DNA of 37,831 bases from Flavobacteriales bacterium (GTDB taxonomy: Bacteria > Bacteroidota > Bacteroidia > CAIKAF01): contig JAIXKU010000106.1 in the NCBI GenBank assembly GCA_026936045.1, positions 1 to 37,831 on the forward strand. The letters run 5' to 3'. Both the position numbers and the translations under genes were made by a program. Positions 12,695-20,522 of the stretch are shown here, in pieces (the first letter of the stretch is position 1; every line of letters begins with the position of its first letter). The notes below the pieces were generated by a model. That model had not been told where the DNA came from. It worked only from the letters and a program-made list of their open reading frames with translations, and ran no database searches.

Positions 12695-13564
12695 TTACCA
12701 ATCGCGCTCTGCTATTTTCATCAGATATTGTCCATAACCACTTTTTAGCAAAGGCTTCGCCAATTCAATCAATTGATCTTTTGAAATAAAATTCATATTG
12801 TAAGCCACCTCTTCTATACAACCTATTTTTAGGCCCTGACGATCTTCAATAACCTGAACAAACTGACCGGCTTGCATAAGCGATTGAAATGTTCCTGTAT
12901 CAAGCCAGGCTGTACCTCGATCCAAAACATATACATTCAATTTTCCCATCTCAAGGTAAATACGATTGACATCCGTAATCTCATATTCTCCTCTCTGACT
13001 TGGCTTCAGGTTTCTAGCAATCTCGACAACCTGATTATCGTAAAAATAAAGCCCCGGCACCGCATAATTAGATTGCGGGTTCTTAGGCTTCTCTTCGATT
13101 GAAATAGCTTTACGACTCTCATCAAACGCTACAACACCATATCGTTCCGGATCCGAAACGTGATATGCAAAAATAACACCGCCCTGCGGCTCGCCGATAG
13201 ACTGTAATTGCAAAGGCATGGCCGTACCGTAAAAAATATTATCTCCTAAGACAAGCGCTGCGCTATCATTCCCGATAAATTCTTCACCCAAAACAAAGGC
13301 TTGTGCCAATCCGTTGGGCGATTCCTGCACTTTATAACTAAACGATAGGCCCAACAATTCTCCTGTGCCAAACAATCGTTGGAAATGAGGCAAGTCATGT
13401 GGTGTAGAAATTATCAATATCTCACGAATACCGGCCATCATCAGTGTGGACAATGGATAGTATATCATCGGCTTATCATATATAGGCATGAGCTGCTTAC
13501 TGATAGCCATTGTAATCGGATACAAACGTGTGCCGGATCCTCCGGCTAGAATAATACCTTTCAC
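12695..13564 (-). CDS. rfbA: Glucose-1-phosphate thymidylyltransferase
   Basis: This enzyme joins glucose-1-phosphate and dTTP to give dTDP-glucose, the first step to dTDP-rhamnose. It has the nucleotide-binding [16 protein letters not shown] motif, [18 protein letters not shown], the [10 protein letters not shown] metal-site region, and the [10 protein letters not shown] and [10 protein letters not shown] motifs of RmlA. The start is uncertain: neither candidate is ATG. GTG at 13564 gives MKGIILAGG, the usual RmlA beginning (290 residues); TTG at 13573 would add three residues. A -7 element sits only 7-17 bases upstream, so the leader is very short. The remaining rml genes are not in this window. 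Confidence 0.95.
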
Positions 13565-13691: not shown

Positions 13692-15506
13692 GTGAAACGA
13701 TTAACTGACATCTTCATAAAAAAGCCTCTTCAAAGTGTTCTTTGGCTTTGTTTTACTATAGGTCTTCTTCAACTTATTTCCGTCAGATGGTGGGATAACA
13801 ATTGGCAAGACATGATAAGCAGTGATGCTTTTGGCTATTATGCGTATCTGCCCTCTACATTTATTTATCATGATTTTCAATACGGCTATGCCAAAGAGAT
13901 GCAAGATACATATCATGCACACGACCAGTCACCCTACTTTTTTGCGCCGTCGCATGATGGGAAATTGGTAAATAAATATTATGTTGGCACAGCGTTGTGC
14001 ATGCTGCCATTCTTCATTATAGCACATATCACAACCCTTCTAACAGGCTATCAGCCAGATGGATTTTCATTTTGGTATGCTGTATTCATTTCATTCGGAA
14101 CACTCTGTTATACCATAGTCGGGCTTTACTTCTTAGCCAAAGCGCTTCTTCTCAAAAAATATACTATTCGACCTATCTCTTTCGTTATCGCCTGTCTTTT
14201 TCTTTGCACCAATTTATATTATTACAGCGTGCATGAAGCGGCCATGTCGCACGCTTATTCATTCTTCTTTATTTCCTTATTTATTTATCTGGTTCTCTCT
14301 TTTCAAGAAAAAAGAAGAACCTTACTTTTATTAGGAATCTCTCTTGGCATGATTATAGCCATAAGGCCTAGTAATCTGATTATTATTACTGCATTACCTT
14401 TTCTGTTAGAAAATAAGGAATCATTGTTTGATTGGTTTAAACGTGTATTCTCCAAACCTAAGAATCTTATCCTCCCTATTTTTTTACTTCTTCTGCCAAT
14501 AGGGATTCAATCTGTTTTTTATTATTTGCAATGTGGGAAATTTTGGGTTTATGCTTATCAAGGAGAGAGTTTTGACTTTGCGCAACCTCATATCATGGCC
14601 TCACTGTTCAGCGCTGAACGTGGCATGTTCGTGTGGACACCATGGATGTTACTGCTCATTCCATCCATTATCATTTCTATTATCAAAAAAATATATATAA
14701 TCATCAGTTTCACATTCTTTTTTATACTTATTTTCTATCTGCTTTCCTCATGGCATATTTGGTTCTATGGCGGTGGTTTTGGGTTAAGACCTTATATTGA
14801 TTTCTACCCTGTATTCGCATTCATGATAATGTACGGCATTACGGATTTATTAGGATTCAATATCGTTAAGCCATTCCTTTTTTTATTCGCCGCTTGCTGC
14901 CTATTTCTCAATCTGTTTCAGCAATACCAATACCGTTTAAGCATTATACCGTATATGGGTGTCACGCAGAAAAGCTACTGGCAAGTATTTTTGCAAACAG
15001 GCAAACAATTCAGATTTATGATGAGTCCGGATAAAGACGTACTTGTAGATACATTCTCAGTGGGAAAAGGCATATGGTTCAGCAATCATTTTGACGGTGA
15101 TACAGTATGGAGAAAAACGAATAGTCTTGCGGATAAAATAAGCTATTCTGCGCCGTTCTCTATTCACCTTAATCAATCAAACCTGTATTCACCGGTTTTG
15201 TCATTTAGACTTACCGACTCTTTATCTGTGGTAAACTATGTTGTAGTCAAAGCCATGATTTTTCAGCAGAATGTGCGTCACAACACACAAGTAGTATTAA
15301 GTGTAGAGAATGAGGATCATGACATCATTCTGTGGAGAGGGCATTATATAATCCATGATATACAGGAAGAACAAAAATGGCTCCCATATTTTTATATGTT
15401 TGATATTCCAAATGGGATCAGACAGGGACAAAAAGCAGAGGTCTATTTTTACAAGCAGGACAAATCGGATTTATATATTGATGATGTGAAAGTCGGTTTT
15501 TACTAA
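13692..15506 (+). CDS. Multi-span membrane protein, possible GT-C-type glycosyltransferase
   Basis: This 604-residue protein has about 11 membrane spans in its first 430 residues and a soluble, probably periplasmic beta-rich C-terminal domain (about 440-604). After the first span comes a loop with SSDAFGYYAYLPS; an acidic residue in this first loop, and the general layout, fit GT-C glycosyltransferases that use lipid-linked sugars, but I cannot name a family, so this is a tentative reading. The start is GTG at 13692; there is no suitable ATG. It is preceded by sugar-nucleotide genes on the other strand. Its last 28 codons and stop are repeated at 19931-20016 as a non-functional remnant next to the phosphoesterase gene, evidence that it once lay directly against that gene. 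Confidence 0.75.
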   Translation: MKRLTDIFIKKPLQSVLWLCFTIGLLQLISVRWWDNNWQDMISSDAFGYYAYLPSTFIYHDFQYGYAKEMQDTYHAHDQSPYFFAPSHDGKLVNKYYVGTALCMLPFFIIAHITTLLTGYQPDGFSFWYAVFISFGTLCYTIVGLYFLAKALLLKKYTIRPISFVIACLFLCTNLYYYSVHEAAMSHAYSFFFISLFIYLVLSFQEKRRTLLLLGISLGMIIAIRPSNLIIITALPFLLENKESLFDWFKRVFSKPKNLILPIFLLLLPIGIQSVFYYLQCGKFWVYAYQGESFDFAQPHIMASLFSAERGMFVWTPWMLLLIPSIIISIIKKIYIIISFTFFFILIFYLLSSWHIWFYGGGFGLRPYIDFYPVFAFMIMYGITDLLGFNIVKPFLFLFAACCLFLNLFQQYQYRLSIIPYMGVTQKSYWQVFLQTGKQFRFMMSPDKDVLVDTFSVGKGIWFSNHFDGDTVWRKTNSLADKISYSAPFSIHLNQSNLYSPVLSFRLTDSLSVVNYVVVKAMIFQQNVRHNTQVVLSVENEDHDIILWRGHYIIHDIQEEQKWLPYFYMFDIPNGIRQGQKAEVYFYKQDKSDLYIDDVKVGFY

Positions 15507-15554
15507 TCAGCCACATACACCCCTCTTTGGCCTAATTCAACAGCCTATATATTG
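15418..15554 (+). repeat. 137-bp direct repeat, left copy
   Basis: This copy matches 19928-20064 at 128 of 137 positions without gaps; all nine differences are transitions. Its left part is the live 3' end of the 604-residue membrane protein gene. Its right part (15503-15554) is a dead copy of the 3' end of the phosphoesterase gene on the other strand. The match ends sharply at both sides. Confidence 0.95.
15503..15554 (-). pseudogene. Remnant of the 3' end of the metallophosphoesterase gene
   Basis: On the minus strand this reads as the last 17 codons of the phosphoesterase (live copy at 20013-20064), but a CAG codon has become TAG (15545-15547), and there are also Met to Ile and Asp to Gly changes. 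No upstream coding part remains. It marks where the phosphoesterase gene ended before the intervening segment arrived. Confidence 0.8.
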
Positions 15555-15778
15555 TTTTGAATTCTTGGTATTTATCATAAATTAATTGATTGATCGTATT
15601 TAGAATTGGCTATCCGTTTCGGAAATAGTGTAGAAGACAAGAGTTGTATTGGGAGATGAAGAAAAAATACACCTCTTAGAAAATATGACCGATACAAGCA
15701 ACCGTTCTGAAAAATAAAACGCCTTATTTTTTTTTATTGGAGAAAAGTAATTAAATTGAATATTATAAAAGTGCTGTT

Positions 15779-17215
15779 ATGAAAAAATCAATACCTCTGT
15801 TACTCTTTATGCTAACGGCTTTTATTGGTGTTGCAGCCCAACACCCGGAGGCCAAACGTGCCAATATTTGGTATTTTGGCAATGGTGCAGGATTAGATTT
15901 TAGTAGCGGTACTGCTGTTGCTATTACCAACGGACAATTAGACTCGTGGGAAAGTTGTGCCTCTATTTCTGATATTAATGGCAATTTATTATTTTATACA
16001 GATGGAGATACCGTTTGGGACAGAAACCACAATGTTATGCCTAACGGGACAGGATTGTATGGCAGTTGCACGTCTACTTCGTGGTATAGCAATAGTGCCA
16101 CACAAGGAGTAATTATTATACCACAACCCAACTCCTCAACTATTTTTTATGTATTTACGGTGGACTGTGCTGAAAATTTAGGTGCAAAAGGAATGAACTA
16201 TTCCGTTGTTGATTTAACCCAAAATAACGGCTTTGGAGATGTTACACTCAAAAATCAATTTTTGTTCGCTCCCACTACCGAAGGCATGGCAGTTACCATG
16301 AACTGCGCCGGTGATAGTGTTTGGGTCGTAGGACACGAATACGGAACCAATGCTTTTTATGCTTATCTTATTACCGAGAATGGGTTAAATACTATGCCTA
16401 TAATTTCTAATGTCGGACAAATTTATAATTTATTTGGGCAAATGAAATTTTCTCCAGATGGAAAACGATTAGCATATCAGGGTTATATTTATAACTTTAA
16501 CAATGGACTTATAACCAATCCATTGTTTATTAATTTTGATGGATACGGTTTGTCTTTCTCCCCTAATAGTAGAAAGTTATATTATTCAATTAGTGGTTTT
16601 TTTATTGGACAATATGATATTACTTTAAATAATGCCTCAGAAATAATAAATTCTTTTCAACCGATTTACCAGGGTATCAGTAATGATGGTATTCATGGTT
16701 TACAAATTGGGATAGATGAAAAAATATATGTATCAAATCAAGATACCACAAAGATTTCATCAATTGATTTTCCTAACAATTCCGGTATAGCAGCAGGTTT
16801 TAATCTTTTTTCTGTTGACCTGAACGGTAAAAAATGTCAATATACCTTACCTTCCTTTATCGAAAGTTATTTTAATGAGAGCTATGATACGGATTGTGCC
16901 CAGCCCGATTCCATGATTTCTGCCGTTATCCCCAACGTATTCTCGCCCAATGATGACGGCATTAACGATTTGTTCAGCCTGCAATTAACAGGCTATAAGA
17001 GCATAGACTGGACGATATATAACCGCTGGGGCATGGCGGTTTGCAACGGCAAAGCAGATACGGACAGCAGCACAGCAGCCAATATCCCACTATGGGACGG
17101 CAGAACCGTCGCCGGCATAAAAGCCACGCAAGGTGCTTATTATTATATTATTCACTTAACCAAAAAAGGAGGTGTCAATGAAACAAAAAAAGGATTTCTG
17201 CACATTTTTTATTGA
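15779..17215 (+). CDS. Secreted protein with type B T9SS sorting domain (gliding motility-associated C-terminal type)
   Basis: This 478-residue protein begins with a signal peptide (MKKSIPLLLFMLTAFIGVAAQ). Residues about 25-370 form a beta-propeller-like passenger with repeats of the SPDGKRLAY and SPNSRKLYY kind, preceded by ANIWYFGNGAGLDFS, common in this family. The C-terminal domain (about 383-478) starts with VIPNVFSPNDDGINDLF and continues with YNRWGM, LWDGRTVAGIKATQGAYYY and a final GFLHIFY: the CHU_C/type B sorting signal. Such proteins cross the outer membrane through the type IX system. The passenger is strikingly AT-rich (67 GC of 240 bases at 16441-16680 by hand count) but the sorting domain is not (116 of 240 at 16921-17160). 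The next gene starts 32 bases later. Confidence 0.9.
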   Translation: MKKSIPLLLFMLTAFIGVAAQHPEAKRANIWYFGNGAGLDFSSGTAVAITNGQLDSWESCASISDINGNLLFYTDGDTVWDRNHNVMPNGTGLYGSCTSTSWYSNSATQGVIIIPQPNSSTIFYVFTVDCAENLGAKGMNYSVVDLTQNNGFGDVTLKNQFLFAPTTEGMAVTMNCAGDSVWVVGHEYGTNAFYAYLITENGLNTMPIISNVGQIYNLFGQMKFSPDGKRLAYQGYIYNFNNGLITNPLFINFDGYGLSFSPNSRKLYYSISGFFIGQYDITLNNASEIINSFQPIYQGISNDGIHGLQIGIDEKIYVSNQDTTKISSIDFPNNSGIAAGFNLFSVDLNGKKCQYTLPSFIESYFNESYDTDCAQPDSMISAVIPNVFSPNDDGINDLFSLQLTGYKSIDWTIYNRWGMAVCNGKADTDSSTAANIPLWDGRTVAGIKATQGAYYYIIHLTKKGGVNETKKGFLHIFY

Positions 17216-17247
17216 TTGCTATTAAAAACTTTTAAAAACGTAATATT

Positions 17248-19827
17248 ATGAAACCAATTATTAAACAATTACTCATCGGAGTACTGATAGGACTACCGAT
17301 AGTTTGCAATGCACAGTTTTTATTAAATTTCCCATTTAATGATTATGTAAGAACCTCTAATCCTGGCACATTACAAAAAGTTGGTATAGGCAATTTTCCT
17401 ACCAACGCCAGTGTACAAGCCAAGCTGCATGTCAACTCATTTTTGCTGGCGGCCAATCCGGCTACCAACGGCCGGCTTTTCCGCACGGATGGCGATTCCA
17501 CTCTAAACAATATGTGGCAGTTGTTTACCGGTGCTAACGCAACAGCCCAAACAGAGCGTTTCCGGCTGATGATACCGAGCAACTCTAATGATGTGCAACT
17601 CAGAGCTACGCAAAACGGAAGCATGAGTTTTTTTACTAACGATACGCAGCGCATGACGATCTTAAACAATGGCCAAGTAGGTATTGGTTTGGTAAATCCC
17701 GATATGCCTTTGACAATTAAGGGCGGCATAAATGATGTCACCACGTCCGGCTGGAGACGAGGCATACACATGCTGAATCATTCCGTCATATCGTGGAGTA
17801 ATGAATTAGATTCTCCCGGCTTTTATATGGGTATGCCTAACTGGCCGGCCGATCATTCTTTTTACTGTGCCATGGCCACTAATCTTCAAGGTACAGGAGT
17901 CTCCAACTTCGTATATCGTATTGTCAATAATCCGATAATCGGCACGACATCCCCTAATCAGGGTGATATGGATTATTTTCACAGCATTAACATATATAAA
18001 AATTTAGGCATTGGTTTAAATGCAGGCGTTAGCAATATATTAAATCCAACCAACAGGGTGGAGATTAACACCACCGCCACCAGCGGCGGTATGGCACCGC
18101 CTGTTTTGGCGCCTAACGGGAACTCCGGTTCAAATGTACCTAATTTCGGAGGTGGTACTGGATTTTCCGGCTTGCGTTTTACGGATTTACGCGCCAACTC
18201 CGCACCCTATTCGGCTAATCCCGGTTCCGGTGTGCTGGCGGTGGATGTTAACGGTGATGTTATTTATGTACCCGATGCTATAAACAACGCTACTAACGCC
18301 AACAACGGATGCAGCATAGATCCGCTTAATCCTGATATCGTTCAGTGGGGGCAGGATATCAACGCCGCCGGTAACCCGGCTCAGTTACTCAACAACCGCG
18401 AAATACCTCTGATGAACAAAAATGCGTATTTCTTAGGTCAAAACTCCACCACCCAGGGTATCAATGCCATAGGCATTGGTTATCCCAATACCGTTGCCCA
18501 ATTACCTGCCCGGATGAGCGTATGGGAAAATCCCGGTCAGAATGTCAGCTTTAATACGGTCGGCATCCTGGGCTTAAACTCCTCAACCCCTGCTCTGATA
18601 TCCGGCCTGAGTTTTGTCGGTGTTGCCGGGTATGCCAATGGCATAGACAGCATGGAGAATAAAAATGAACATATCGGCGGGTATTTTCGCGCCGATGGCG
18701 GCCTGATAAACTACGGCGTGAAAGGTATCGCCAGTATGGGACATCCCAGTTTCGGCAATAAAAATTATGGCGGTGATTTCTTGGCCGACGCCAATCAATC
18801 CAATTCTGCAAACCATGGTGTACACAGCATGGCCCTCAATGGTCAGATCAGCTATGCCGGCTGGTTTGCGGCCGGCGGTGCACAAACCGAAAATATTGGC
18901 CTGAATACGATGGCCTCCGGTAACACGATGAGCTCTGTTAACATAGGCATAAGAACTTCTGCCGGCGGGCTACCGGGTAGCTACACCTATGCCATTTATG
19001 CACAGGCGCCTGTTGATTCCGGCTTTAGTTATGCCGGCTGGTTTGAAGGTGATGTGCATGTCAACGGCGTGGTGACTACATCGGATAGCACAATCAAGGA
19101 AAATATCAACCCGCTGCAAAGCGTATCTCAACAATTATCACAGCTCAATCCGGTATCTTTCAACTATAAACAAAATGCGGTGCCTCAACTTACTTTAGAT
19201 ACAAAGCAGCATTTCGGCCTTCTGGCTCAGGAAGTGGAATTAATCTGGCCAGCTTTGGTACAAAATTCACAGATAGCGCCTGTTTTTGATTCTACCGGCG
19301 CTATCATTCATCCGGCGGCAACAGTTAAAAGCCTCAATTATATTGAACTCATTACATTGCTTATTGCAGGATACAAAGAGCAAGAGGAAAAAATAAAACA
19401 GCAGGATTCGATACTGCAAAACATACAGCAGGAAATCCAGATGCTTACGGGGGTGATCACCAAATGTTGCAGCCAGTCTCAGCTCATGCTAACACCGGAT
19501 AATAATCAACAATACCCTTCCATACAACATCAATACACGATGGATATTATCCTGCGCAACGAAGATATGATTGTGCTCAACCAAAATGCACCCAACCCCT
19601 TCAAAGAGCAAACAACCATTACCTGGTATCTGCCCGAACGGGTGCAACGCGCTCAGCTTATCTTCACCAATAATTTGGGGCAGGTCATCAAAATGGCAGA
19701 TATCCGCGAAACCGGACACGGGCGCATTATCGTTTATGCCGACGACCTCAGCAGCGGTATATACAACTACAGCTTAGTGGCAGACGGACAAATCATTGAA
19801 ACCAAACGTATGAGTAAGGTGGATTAG
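17248..19827 (+). CDS. Fibre-like secreted protein: S74 chaperone domain followed by type A T9SS sorting domain
   Basis: This 859-residue protein has a signal peptide (cleavage after about CNAQ, residue 25). A long Gly/Asn/Ser-rich body (about 30-600) resembles tail-fibre-like surface proteins of Bacteroidota. Residues about 608-700 form a peptidase S74 intramolecular chaperone: SDSTIKENINPL, with Ser612 and Lys617 at the five-residue spacing of the autocleaving Ser/Lys dyad, then LSQLNPVSFNYK and FGLLAQEVE. A coiled coil follows (about 709-738). The end (about 773-859) is a type A T9SS sorting domain with LNQNAPNPFKEQTTITWYLP and a final GxxxxxK-like strand. The body is GC-richer (119 of 240 bases at 18601-18840) than the passenger of the previous gene. 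It is probably cotranscribed with that gene and ends at a strong terminator. Confidence 0.88.
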   Translation: MKPIIKQLLIGVLIGLPIVCNAQFLLNFPFNDYVRTSNPGTLQKVGIGNFPTNASVQAKLHVNSFLLAANPATNGRLFRTDGDSTLNNMWQLFTGANATAQTERFRLMIPSNSNDVQLRATQNGSMSFFTNDTQRMTILNNGQVGIGLVNPDMPLTIKGGINDVTTSGWRRGIHMLNHSVISWSNELDSPGFYMGMPNWPADHSFYCAMATNLQGTGVSNFVYRIVNNPIIGTTSPNQGDMDYFHSINIYKNLGIGLNAGVSNILNPTNRVEINTTATSGGMAPPVLAPNGNSGSNVPNFGGGTGFSGLRFTDLRANSAPYSANPGSGVLAVDVNGDVIYVPDAINNATNANNGCSIDPLNPDIVQWGQDINAAGNPAQLLNNREIPLMNKNAYFLGQNSTTQGINAIGIGYPNTVAQLPARMSVWENPGQNVSFNTVGILGLNSSTPALISGLSFVGVAGYANGIDSMENKNEHIGGYFRADGGLINYGVKGIASMGHPSFGNKNYGGDFLADANQSNSANHGVHSMALNGQISYAGWFAAGGAQTENIGLNTMASGNTMSSVNIGIRTSAGGLPGSYTYAIYAQAPVDSGFSYAGWFEGDVHVNGVVTTSDSTIKENINPLQSVSQQLSQLNPVSFNYKQNAVPQLTLDTKQHFGLLAQEVELIWPALVQNSQIAPVFDSTGAIIHPAATVKSLNYIELITLLIAGYKEQEEKIKQQDSILQNIQQEIQMLTGVITKCCSQSQLMLTPDNNQQYPSIQHQYTMDIILRNEDMIVLNQNAPNPFKEQTTITWYLPERVQRAQLIFTNNLGQVIKMADIRETGHGRIIVYADDLSSGIYNYSLVADGQIIETKRMSKVD

Positions 19828-19830
19828 GAA

Positions 19831-19870
19831 ATAAATGGTGGAAGATAAGAACTTATCTTCCACCATTTAT
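19831..19870 (+). terminator. Strong hairpin terminator after the S74/T9SS gene
   Basis: Two perfectly complementary 19-base arms (19831-19849 and 19852-19870) are separated by two bases; the stem begins 3 bases after the stop codon at 19825-19827. A short T-containing tail follows. It would end transcription from the two cargo genes before the convergent phosphoesterase. The perfect symmetry means it could also act for transcripts coming the other way. Confidence 0.75.
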
Positions 19871-19898
19871 TTAAGCATTCAGCTTTTATTAAGATAAC

Positions 19899-19906
19899 TA
19901 TATTTG
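19899..19906 (+). promoter_or_regulatory. TAnnTTTG element ahead of the remnant ORF
   Basis: The plus strand reads TATATTTG, a match to the -7 consensus, 8 bases before the ATG of a 33-codon remnant ORF. It may be chance in this AT-rich gap. Confidence 0.25.
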
Positions 19907-19914
19907 CTTCTCTC

Positions 19915-20016
19915 ATGTACAAAGACGTCAGACAGGGGCAAAAAGCAGAGGCCTATTTTTACAAGCAGGACAAATCGGATTTATATATTGATGATGTAGA
20001 AATCGGTTTTTACTAA
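19915..20016 (+). pseudogene. 33-codon remnant of the 3' end of the 604-residue membrane protein gene
   Basis: The frame ATG TAC AAA GAC GTC runs into a copy of the last 28 codons of the membrane protein gene, ending in IGFY and TAA. Compared with the live copy it has three amino-acid changes (Val to Ala, Lys to Glu, Val to Ile) and two silent ones. It has no membrane part and is most likely a fossil, though a start codon and a promoter-like element stand in front of it. Its stop overlaps the stop of the phosphoesterase gene. Confidence 0.7.
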
Positions 20017-20064
20017 TCAGCCACATACACTCCTCTTTGGTCTAATTCAACAGCCTGCATATTG
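19928..20064 (+). repeat. 137-bp direct repeat, right copy
   Basis: This copy matches 15418-15554 at 128 of 137 positions. Its left part (to 20016) is the dead 3' end of the membrane protein gene; its right part is the live 3' end of the phosphoesterase gene. The distribution of live and dead halves is the mirror of the left copy. Confidence 0.95.
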
Positions 20065-20522
20065 AATATTCGCTCGGCTTCAATTTCAAATTTCAATAAG
20101 GTAATCATTTTATGCCAGCCATAATTTCCGGCCGCTCCCGGATTAAGAAAAAGCCATTGGTTGGGATTATCGTATTGCACTTTAAGTATATGAGAATGTC
20201 CGCAAATAAAAATTTGGGGCTGATGTGCCTTAACAAACAGAAAAGCCCTTTTATCATACTTTCCCGGATAACCACCAATATGGGTCATACAAACTTTAAC
20301 TTGCTCAACAGTAAAGTATAAATCTTCATTTAGTTGCTTACGTATCTTCTGTCCGTCAATATTGCCATAAACGGCACGCAGTGTTTTGAATGCGGTTATT
20401 TCCTTCAACACCTCTTCAGATCCAATATCGCCGGCATGCCAGACTTCGTCACAATCGGAAAGATAATGAAACAAACGCGGATGAATATACCCATGCGTAT
20501 CGCTGATTAAACCTATCTTCAT
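20013..20522 (-). CDS. YfcE/MJ0936-type metallophosphoesterase
   Basis: This 169-residue soluble protein has the calcineurin-like metal-binding series in order: SDTHG (residues 8-12), HAGDIGS, YGNID, MTHIGG and GHSH. Its size and the spacing fit the compact YfcE/MJ0936 phosphodiesterase group, which needs two divalent metals; the natural substrate is not known. The gene starts 6 bases after the stop of batE, so it is probably the last gene of the bat transcript. Its 3' end lies in the right copy of the 137-bp repeat, and a decayed copy of its last 17 codons sits 4.5 kb away. Confidence 0.9.
   Translation of the reverse strand: MKIGLISDTHGYIHPRLFHYLSDCDEVWHAGDIGSEEVLKEITAFKTLRAVYGNIDGQKIRKQLNEDLYFTVEQVKVCMTHIGGYPGKYDKRAFLFVKAHQPQIFICGHSHILKVQYDNPNQWLFLNPGAAGNYGWHKMITLLKFEIEAERIFNMQAVELDQRGVYVAD

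Follow-up and report, generated by a model that had tools for sequence, protein, structure and literature searches.

A duplicated gene junction flanks a two-gene insertion of type IX secretion cargo in a Flavobacteriales genome

How can a pair of genes enter the tight border between two convergent genes and leave both of them unharmed? The question is raised by a locus on contig JAIXKU010000106.1 of the Flavobacteriales bacterium assembly GCA_026936045.1 (here called G000). The whole stretch analyzed, 37,831 nt, is referred to as the window. Two genes, one encoding a cargo protein of the type IX secretion system (T9SS) and the other a probable one, lie there between a membrane-protein gene and a phosphoesterase gene, and a copy of the same 137-nt gene junction borders the inserted segment on each side. 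We conclude that the locus carries a clear recombination scar of a known kind: a segment of about 4.4 kb entered between former neighbors, and a block of resident sequence was duplicated. It is the only instance so far, and it does not prove that a gene-swapping system exists.

A repeat search of the window identified the two junction copies (Table 1) as a direct repeat of 137 nt, with 93% identity and a spacing of 4510, and self-BLAST aligned them with 128 of 137 positions identical (E = 7.6e-54). The 2.79-Mb genome holds only these two copies, the next match having E = 0.33, and a dispersed element is thereby ruled out. Each copy contains the convergent 3' ends of both genes, whose reading frames overlap at their stop codons inside the junction. 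In the left copy the membrane-gene end is live (stop at 15504–15506), and the last ~50 nt of the phosphoesterase gene form a dead tail with an in-frame TAG, reading NNI*AVELGQRGVYVAD*. In the right copy the phosphoesterase end is live (stop at 20013–20015), and the 89-nt tail of the membrane gene is an orphan. The live end is the outer one in both copies. Because the duplicated block includes both 3' ends, each neighbor kept one intact end, while the other halves are dead.

The comparison within the genus covered G000 and three further genomes (G001, G002, and G003). In G003 the gene order is identical, running through RsgA, Pgk, an epimerase, a nucleotidyltransferase, the membrane gene, the phosphoesterase gene, and the Bat operon. 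The membrane-protein orthologue there is 59% identical and adjoins the phosphoesterase; the two genes are 7 bp apart, with a single junction and no cargo genes. This empty site rules out that the insert is present in all relatives. Nucleotide divergence between G000 and G003 is 36% in the membrane gene and 32% in the phosphoesterase gene (57% and 55% at third positions), whereas the two junction copies differ by 6.6% (95% interval 3.0–12.1%). Because the duplication is far younger than the split of these genomes, we conclude that the empty site of G003 is ancestral and did not arise by loss, and that the insertion occurred in the lineage of the window. The phosphoesterase gene of G001 has a different neighbor, and so the adjacency of the two genes is limited to part of the genus. 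A search of GTDB r220 for closer relatives found only one contig, which appears to be G003's own. The same membrane protein stands beside a Bacteroidota-type gene order in record JACSSC010000047.1, titled Candidatus Competibacteraceae and probably mislabelled.

These results bear out much of the first-pass annotation, which was made from the window alone. It had reported the repeat with its 128 matches, the exchange of live and dead halves around convergent 3' ends, an insert without a recombinase, and the entry of ~4.4 kb between two former neighbors with duplication of their junction. The repeat search, the reading frames, and the empty site of G003 agree with it on each of these; the overlap of the two frames refines its description of the junction. 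It had named a dispersed repeat, or cargo genes and both repeat copies in all relatives, as findings that would speak against insertion, and neither was observed.

The annotation had also correctly noted that all nine mismatches between the copies (15428, 15442, 15488, 15489, 15492, 15521, 15531, 15547, and 15548) are transitions. Between the insert and a paralogue on contig C259 of the same genome, 28 of 38 differences are transitions; given that rate, nine of nine has p ~0.06–0.1, and the pattern is unremarkable. Using G003 as the outgroup, we could polarize six of these differences. The derived bases fall in the dead membrane-gene half of the right copy (15442, 15488, and 15492), in the dead phosphoesterase half of the left copy (15547 and 15548), and once in the live half of the right copy (15531); the changes in the dead halves include a nonsense change. 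That five of six derived bases lie in dead halves (p = 0.11 under equal rates, with small n) lends weak support to descent of both copies from a single resident junction, followed by drift.

The insert has two open reading frames, the first encoding T9SS cargo and the second probable T9SS cargo. Cargo 1 ends in a CHU_C sorting domain (E = 9e-17, above the cut-off). Cargo 2 has a Peptidase_S74 domain scoring 45.6 bits against a gathering cut-off of 22, and its match to Por_Secre_tail (type A) is weak and below the cut-off (E = 9e-4). Among 395 genomes of the class, the closest relatives of cargo 1 all belong to a single other family, f33 (67% identity in G047, 50% in G362, and 48% in G303), and in these three genomes the gene that follows starts like cargo 2, with the N-terminus of an S74 gene. 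Within the genus, the best relatives of cargo 1 are only ~41% identical and match its N-terminal 370 residues. Cargo 2 is itself composite. Residues 1 to ~160 resemble the S74 gene of G047 (52% protein identity, with 31 of 40 residues identical at 41–80), whereas residues ~320–859, the C-terminal two thirds, are of the genus type (62% identity to G003, with 36 of 40 identical at 801–840). G+C content also changes stepwise: it is 37.5% in cargo 1, whereas the C-terminal part of cargo 2 has 47%. Judged by these similarities, the insert is of mosaic origin, with another family as the source of cargo 1 and of the N-terminus of cargo 2 and a resident S74 gene as the source of the C-terminus, so that a foreign pair appears to have been fused to a resident S74/T9SS gene. 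Transfer of the cargo would have run from the other family to the lineage of the window. No relatives of the cargo genes were found on viral contigs, and the plasmids searched held only remote ones (best match 36% identity); a phage or plasmid origin of the cargo was therefore rejected. A literature search, limited to one library and one set of terms, found no paper linking S74 domains with T9SS.

Both the chimeric structure of cargo 2 and its 97% identical paralogue on C259 are new relative to the first-pass annotation. The match consists of an exact 55-mer (18635–18689), a stretch of 454 bp with 36 differences (18690–19143; 8% diverged, with nonsynonymous divergence dN 0.060 and synonymous divergence dS 0.129), and 644 identical bp (19144–19787); similarity stops 7 nt beyond the cargo 2 stop codon. 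Downstream of the paralogue lies a different gene, HMG-CoA-lyase-like when its translation was inspected by eye. The 644 identical bp point either to gene conversion in the recent past or to copies that were collapsed in the assembly. Because C259 starts with the exact shared 55-mer, a fork in a k = 55 assembly graph is suggested, and the course that the contig takes through cargo 2 is not secure. An intragenomic copy of the full 4.4 kb was rejected, since just 1.2 kb matched, although C259 itself begins at the apparent fork and the match may extend farther upstream. The ages of the duplication and the paralogue are compatible (dS 0.129 against a repeat distance of 0.070, of which only one side is neutral).

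By what route did the cassette enter? The insert sits exactly between direct copies of a resident sequence that G003 has once, the arrangement looked for as a sign of homologous integration. We tentatively favor, with somewhat less than even confidence, recombinational integration of the 4.4-kb cassette, most likely by a single crossover of the Campbell type. The two cargo genes would have entered the border of the convergent genes in one event, duplicating 137 bp of resident sequence. A RecA-dependent crossover at the junction would have used an incoming molecule that already carried a resident-type copy of the junction next to the cassette. Later, the two S74 copies would have undergone gene conversion, and the dead halves would have drifted. 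The 137-bp repeats could in principle recombine with each other, excising the cassette and restoring a single junction. Several observations weigh against this route. The search, with three other genomes of the genus to draw on, found no donor molecule or donor genome with the junction beside the cassette, which a single crossover requires; inspection of both joints of the insert revealed no obvious microhomology or recombination signal; the contig passes the assembly forks inside cargo 2; and the sequence cannot separate a single crossover from a one-step template switch.

Template switching during replication, similar to microhomology-mediated break-induced replication (MMBIR), is the main rival, and we consider it possible though on balance doubtful. 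The fork would exit at the phosphoesterase side, copy 4.4 kb of another template, and re-enter 137 bp upstream; a single step would produce both the insertion and the duplication, and no pre-joined donor would be needed. Such a switch would explain why the insert is flanked exactly, why its end points are arbitrary and fall within codons, and why insert and target are not homologous. Both copies look derived from the same resident sequence, and the very similar paralogue in the genome is a possible template. However, the homology to C259 stops at 19834, 93 bp before the right repeat, and the joints lack visible microhomology, although 6–7% drift could have erased any.

Whether the contig is correctly joined also has to be weighed. 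A metagenome assembly or a mixture of strains could have wrongly connected two loci within cargo 2, where the graph forks at both exact matches to C259 (the 55-mer and the 644-bp block); the bin consists of 341 contigs, with 3% contamination. The junction copies, however, lie outside the forked stretch, and each runs uninterrupted into its own flank. They share no identical run longer than 45 nt, which is below the apparent k of 55; the forks therefore leave them unaffected, and the repeat itself is unlikely to be artefactual. The flanks of the window are moreover neighbors in G003. We regard an artefact as very unlikely.

Slightly less probable still is that a staggered break was filled in over 137 nt and that foreign DNA was captured there through end joining. 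Whatever DNA was captured in this way would be expected to lie between perfect direct repeats, but a 137-nt overhang is very long. Neither G000 (97% complete) nor the three other genomes of the genus yielded Ku, which was detected in G004 and G020, and Ku-dependent, classical end joining is therefore disfavored; Ku-independent end joining is still conceivable. Lowest among the graded readings, and highly improbable, is the remnant of a site-specific integrative element, in which the 137-bp repeats would be attL and attR and the integrase would have been lost. Direct repeats that restore target 3' ends would resemble island attachment sites, and the 7% difference would suit an att site borne by the element. 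On the other side, no recombinase accompanies the two cargo frames, the repeat spans the ends of both genes although one end would usually suffice for an att site, the derived bases are concentrated in the dead halves, the genome contains no further copy of the site, and the cargo genes lack viral relatives. A transposon or insertion sequence was rejected on the 137-nt length of the duplication, edges without terminal inverted repeats, and the absence of a transposase open reading frame.

Table 1. Positions of the junction copies, the insert, and the flanking genes in the window
Feature	Position	Strand	Description and basis
Membrane (glycosyltransferase-like) protein, 604 aa	13692..15506	+	Left neighbor of ancestral junction; open reading frame, G003 orthologue
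Left junction copy	15418..15554	.	Live 3' end of membrane gene; dead ~50-nt phosphoesterase end (TAG)
Insert leader, AT-rich, 28% GC	15555..15778	+	No match elsewhere in own genome
Cargo 1, 478-aa secreted protein with CHU_C (T9SS type B) sorting domain	15779..17215	+	Pfam/NCBIfam; relatives in G047, G303, G362
Cargo 2, 859-aa chimera with Peptidase_S74 at residues 612-671 and weak type A sorting tail	17248..19827	+	Pfam/NCBIfam, comparisons
Segment common to window and C259, 97%	18635..19834	+	Matches C259:1-1200
Palindrome, 20-bp stem, terminator-like hairpin after cargo 2	19829..19872	.	Repeat search, folding
Right junction copy	19928..20064	.	Dead 89-nt membrane-gene tail; live 3' end of phosphoesterase gene
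YfcE/Metallophos_2 phosphoesterase	20013..20522	-	Right neighbor of ancestral junction, then Bat operon; open reading frame, Pfam/NCBIfam

The hairpin after cargo 2 folds with a free energy of -29.5 kcal/mol when its flanks are included (z -5) and has no clear T run. The membrane protein had no confident Pfam match in the Pfam/NCBIfam search; its similarity to the LA_3751/3752 glycosyltransferase is weak and below the cut-off.

The first-pass annotation had gone further and suggested that surface-protein genes may be swapped in by this mechanism, proposing a search for similar duplications beside T9SS cargo genes. Our scan for long direct repeats took in the surroundings of most CHU_C and Por_Secre_tail genes of G000 (718 kb; 27 and 69 matches, respectively, in the genome; contig C153 and the remaining T9SS contigs lay outside the scan) and extended to G003 (363 kb) and G001 (393 kb). 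None of these sequences yielded another gene junction with a long direct duplication; because a fragmented assembly hides young, near-identical duplications, this negative result is partial evidence only. Apart from intragenic or tandem repeats, the scan yielded a CRISPR-like array (clustered regularly interspaced short palindromic repeats) and one repeat in G001. The array, on C56 of G000 (L197:14333-20000), lies beside open reading frames whose inspected translations resemble Cas2, Cas1, and Cas9, and was rejected as a second case. On C89 (L207:10793-11904), a 459-bp exact tandem duplication extends over two open reading frames of ~200 aa.

The G001 repeat (L117:11430-11562 / 13127-13259) is 85% identical over 98 nt and 77% over 133. 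Its copies lie on either side of the CHU_C gene in the corresponding CHU_C and S74 pair: one is within the S74 gene, and the other, upstream, is a dead piece of that gene's N-terminal region. This arrangement is suggestive of a similar process, but an older copy of the gene could also have left such a remnant. The gene neighbors of the CHU_C and S74 pair differ among G000, G003, and G001. One might speculate, although we think it unlikely, that such pairs form, in this class, a modular surface-protein cassette that changes its place and its front part, namely the CHU_C gene and the S74 N-terminus. Equally speculatively, recombination would be anchored on the conserved S74/sorting C-terminus and would leave partial flanking duplications as scars, with the window and G001 as examples. 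In G000, five matches to the N-terminal module of the G003 S74 protein occur in neighboring open reading frames of C153 (6826-12094), apparently a tandem family. Thus the earlier interpretation stands for the insertion between former neighbors and is not supported for a general swapping mechanism, with no second case at the sampled T9SS loci and one weaker, different parallel in G001.

The locus nevertheless records, with unusual legibility, how genes were acquired with no enzyme of a mobile element: one can point to the unoccupied site, the border that was duplicated, the lineage that supplied the cargo pair, and the chimera's native portion. The overlapping convergent ends within the duplicated block indicate how a gene pair can enter a tight junction with both neighbors unharmed. 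Modular exchange, if true across more genomes, would suggest how T9SS surface repertoires diversify.

Several known systems share features with this event. In the sequential displacement of effector genes of the type VI secretion system (PMC5361080), secreted-protein modules are exchanged between strains at defined places, as here; displacement there occurs at a fixed locus, whereas the cassette in the window occupies a new locus and displaced no cargo gene. In pneumococcus, merodiploids arise through transformation when integration with alternative pairing duplicates resident DNA, a likeness to the window; the duplications reported are mostly 100–900 kb between pre-existing repeats, with no 137-bp case, and one small duplication without flanking repeats was also observed (PMC3784515). 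Homology-facilitated illegitimate recombination likewise brings in foreign DNA with homology at one end only, but its products typically delete a similar-sized piece of recipient DNA and use 3–10 bp of microhomology (PMC3240628). It was rejected here: recipient DNA was duplicated, no gene was lost relative to G003, and no microhomology is visible. A precedent comes from E. coli, with some differences: in the window the cassette is natural and the duplicated block spans two convergent gene ends, whereas the E. coli donor was a laboratory plasmid with a marker. There, single-crossover integration of small non-replicative plasmids placed foreign DNA between short duplications of the homologous target locus, and their range of 109–950 bp includes the 137 bp found here (Amarir-Bouhram et al. 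2011, PMC3240628).

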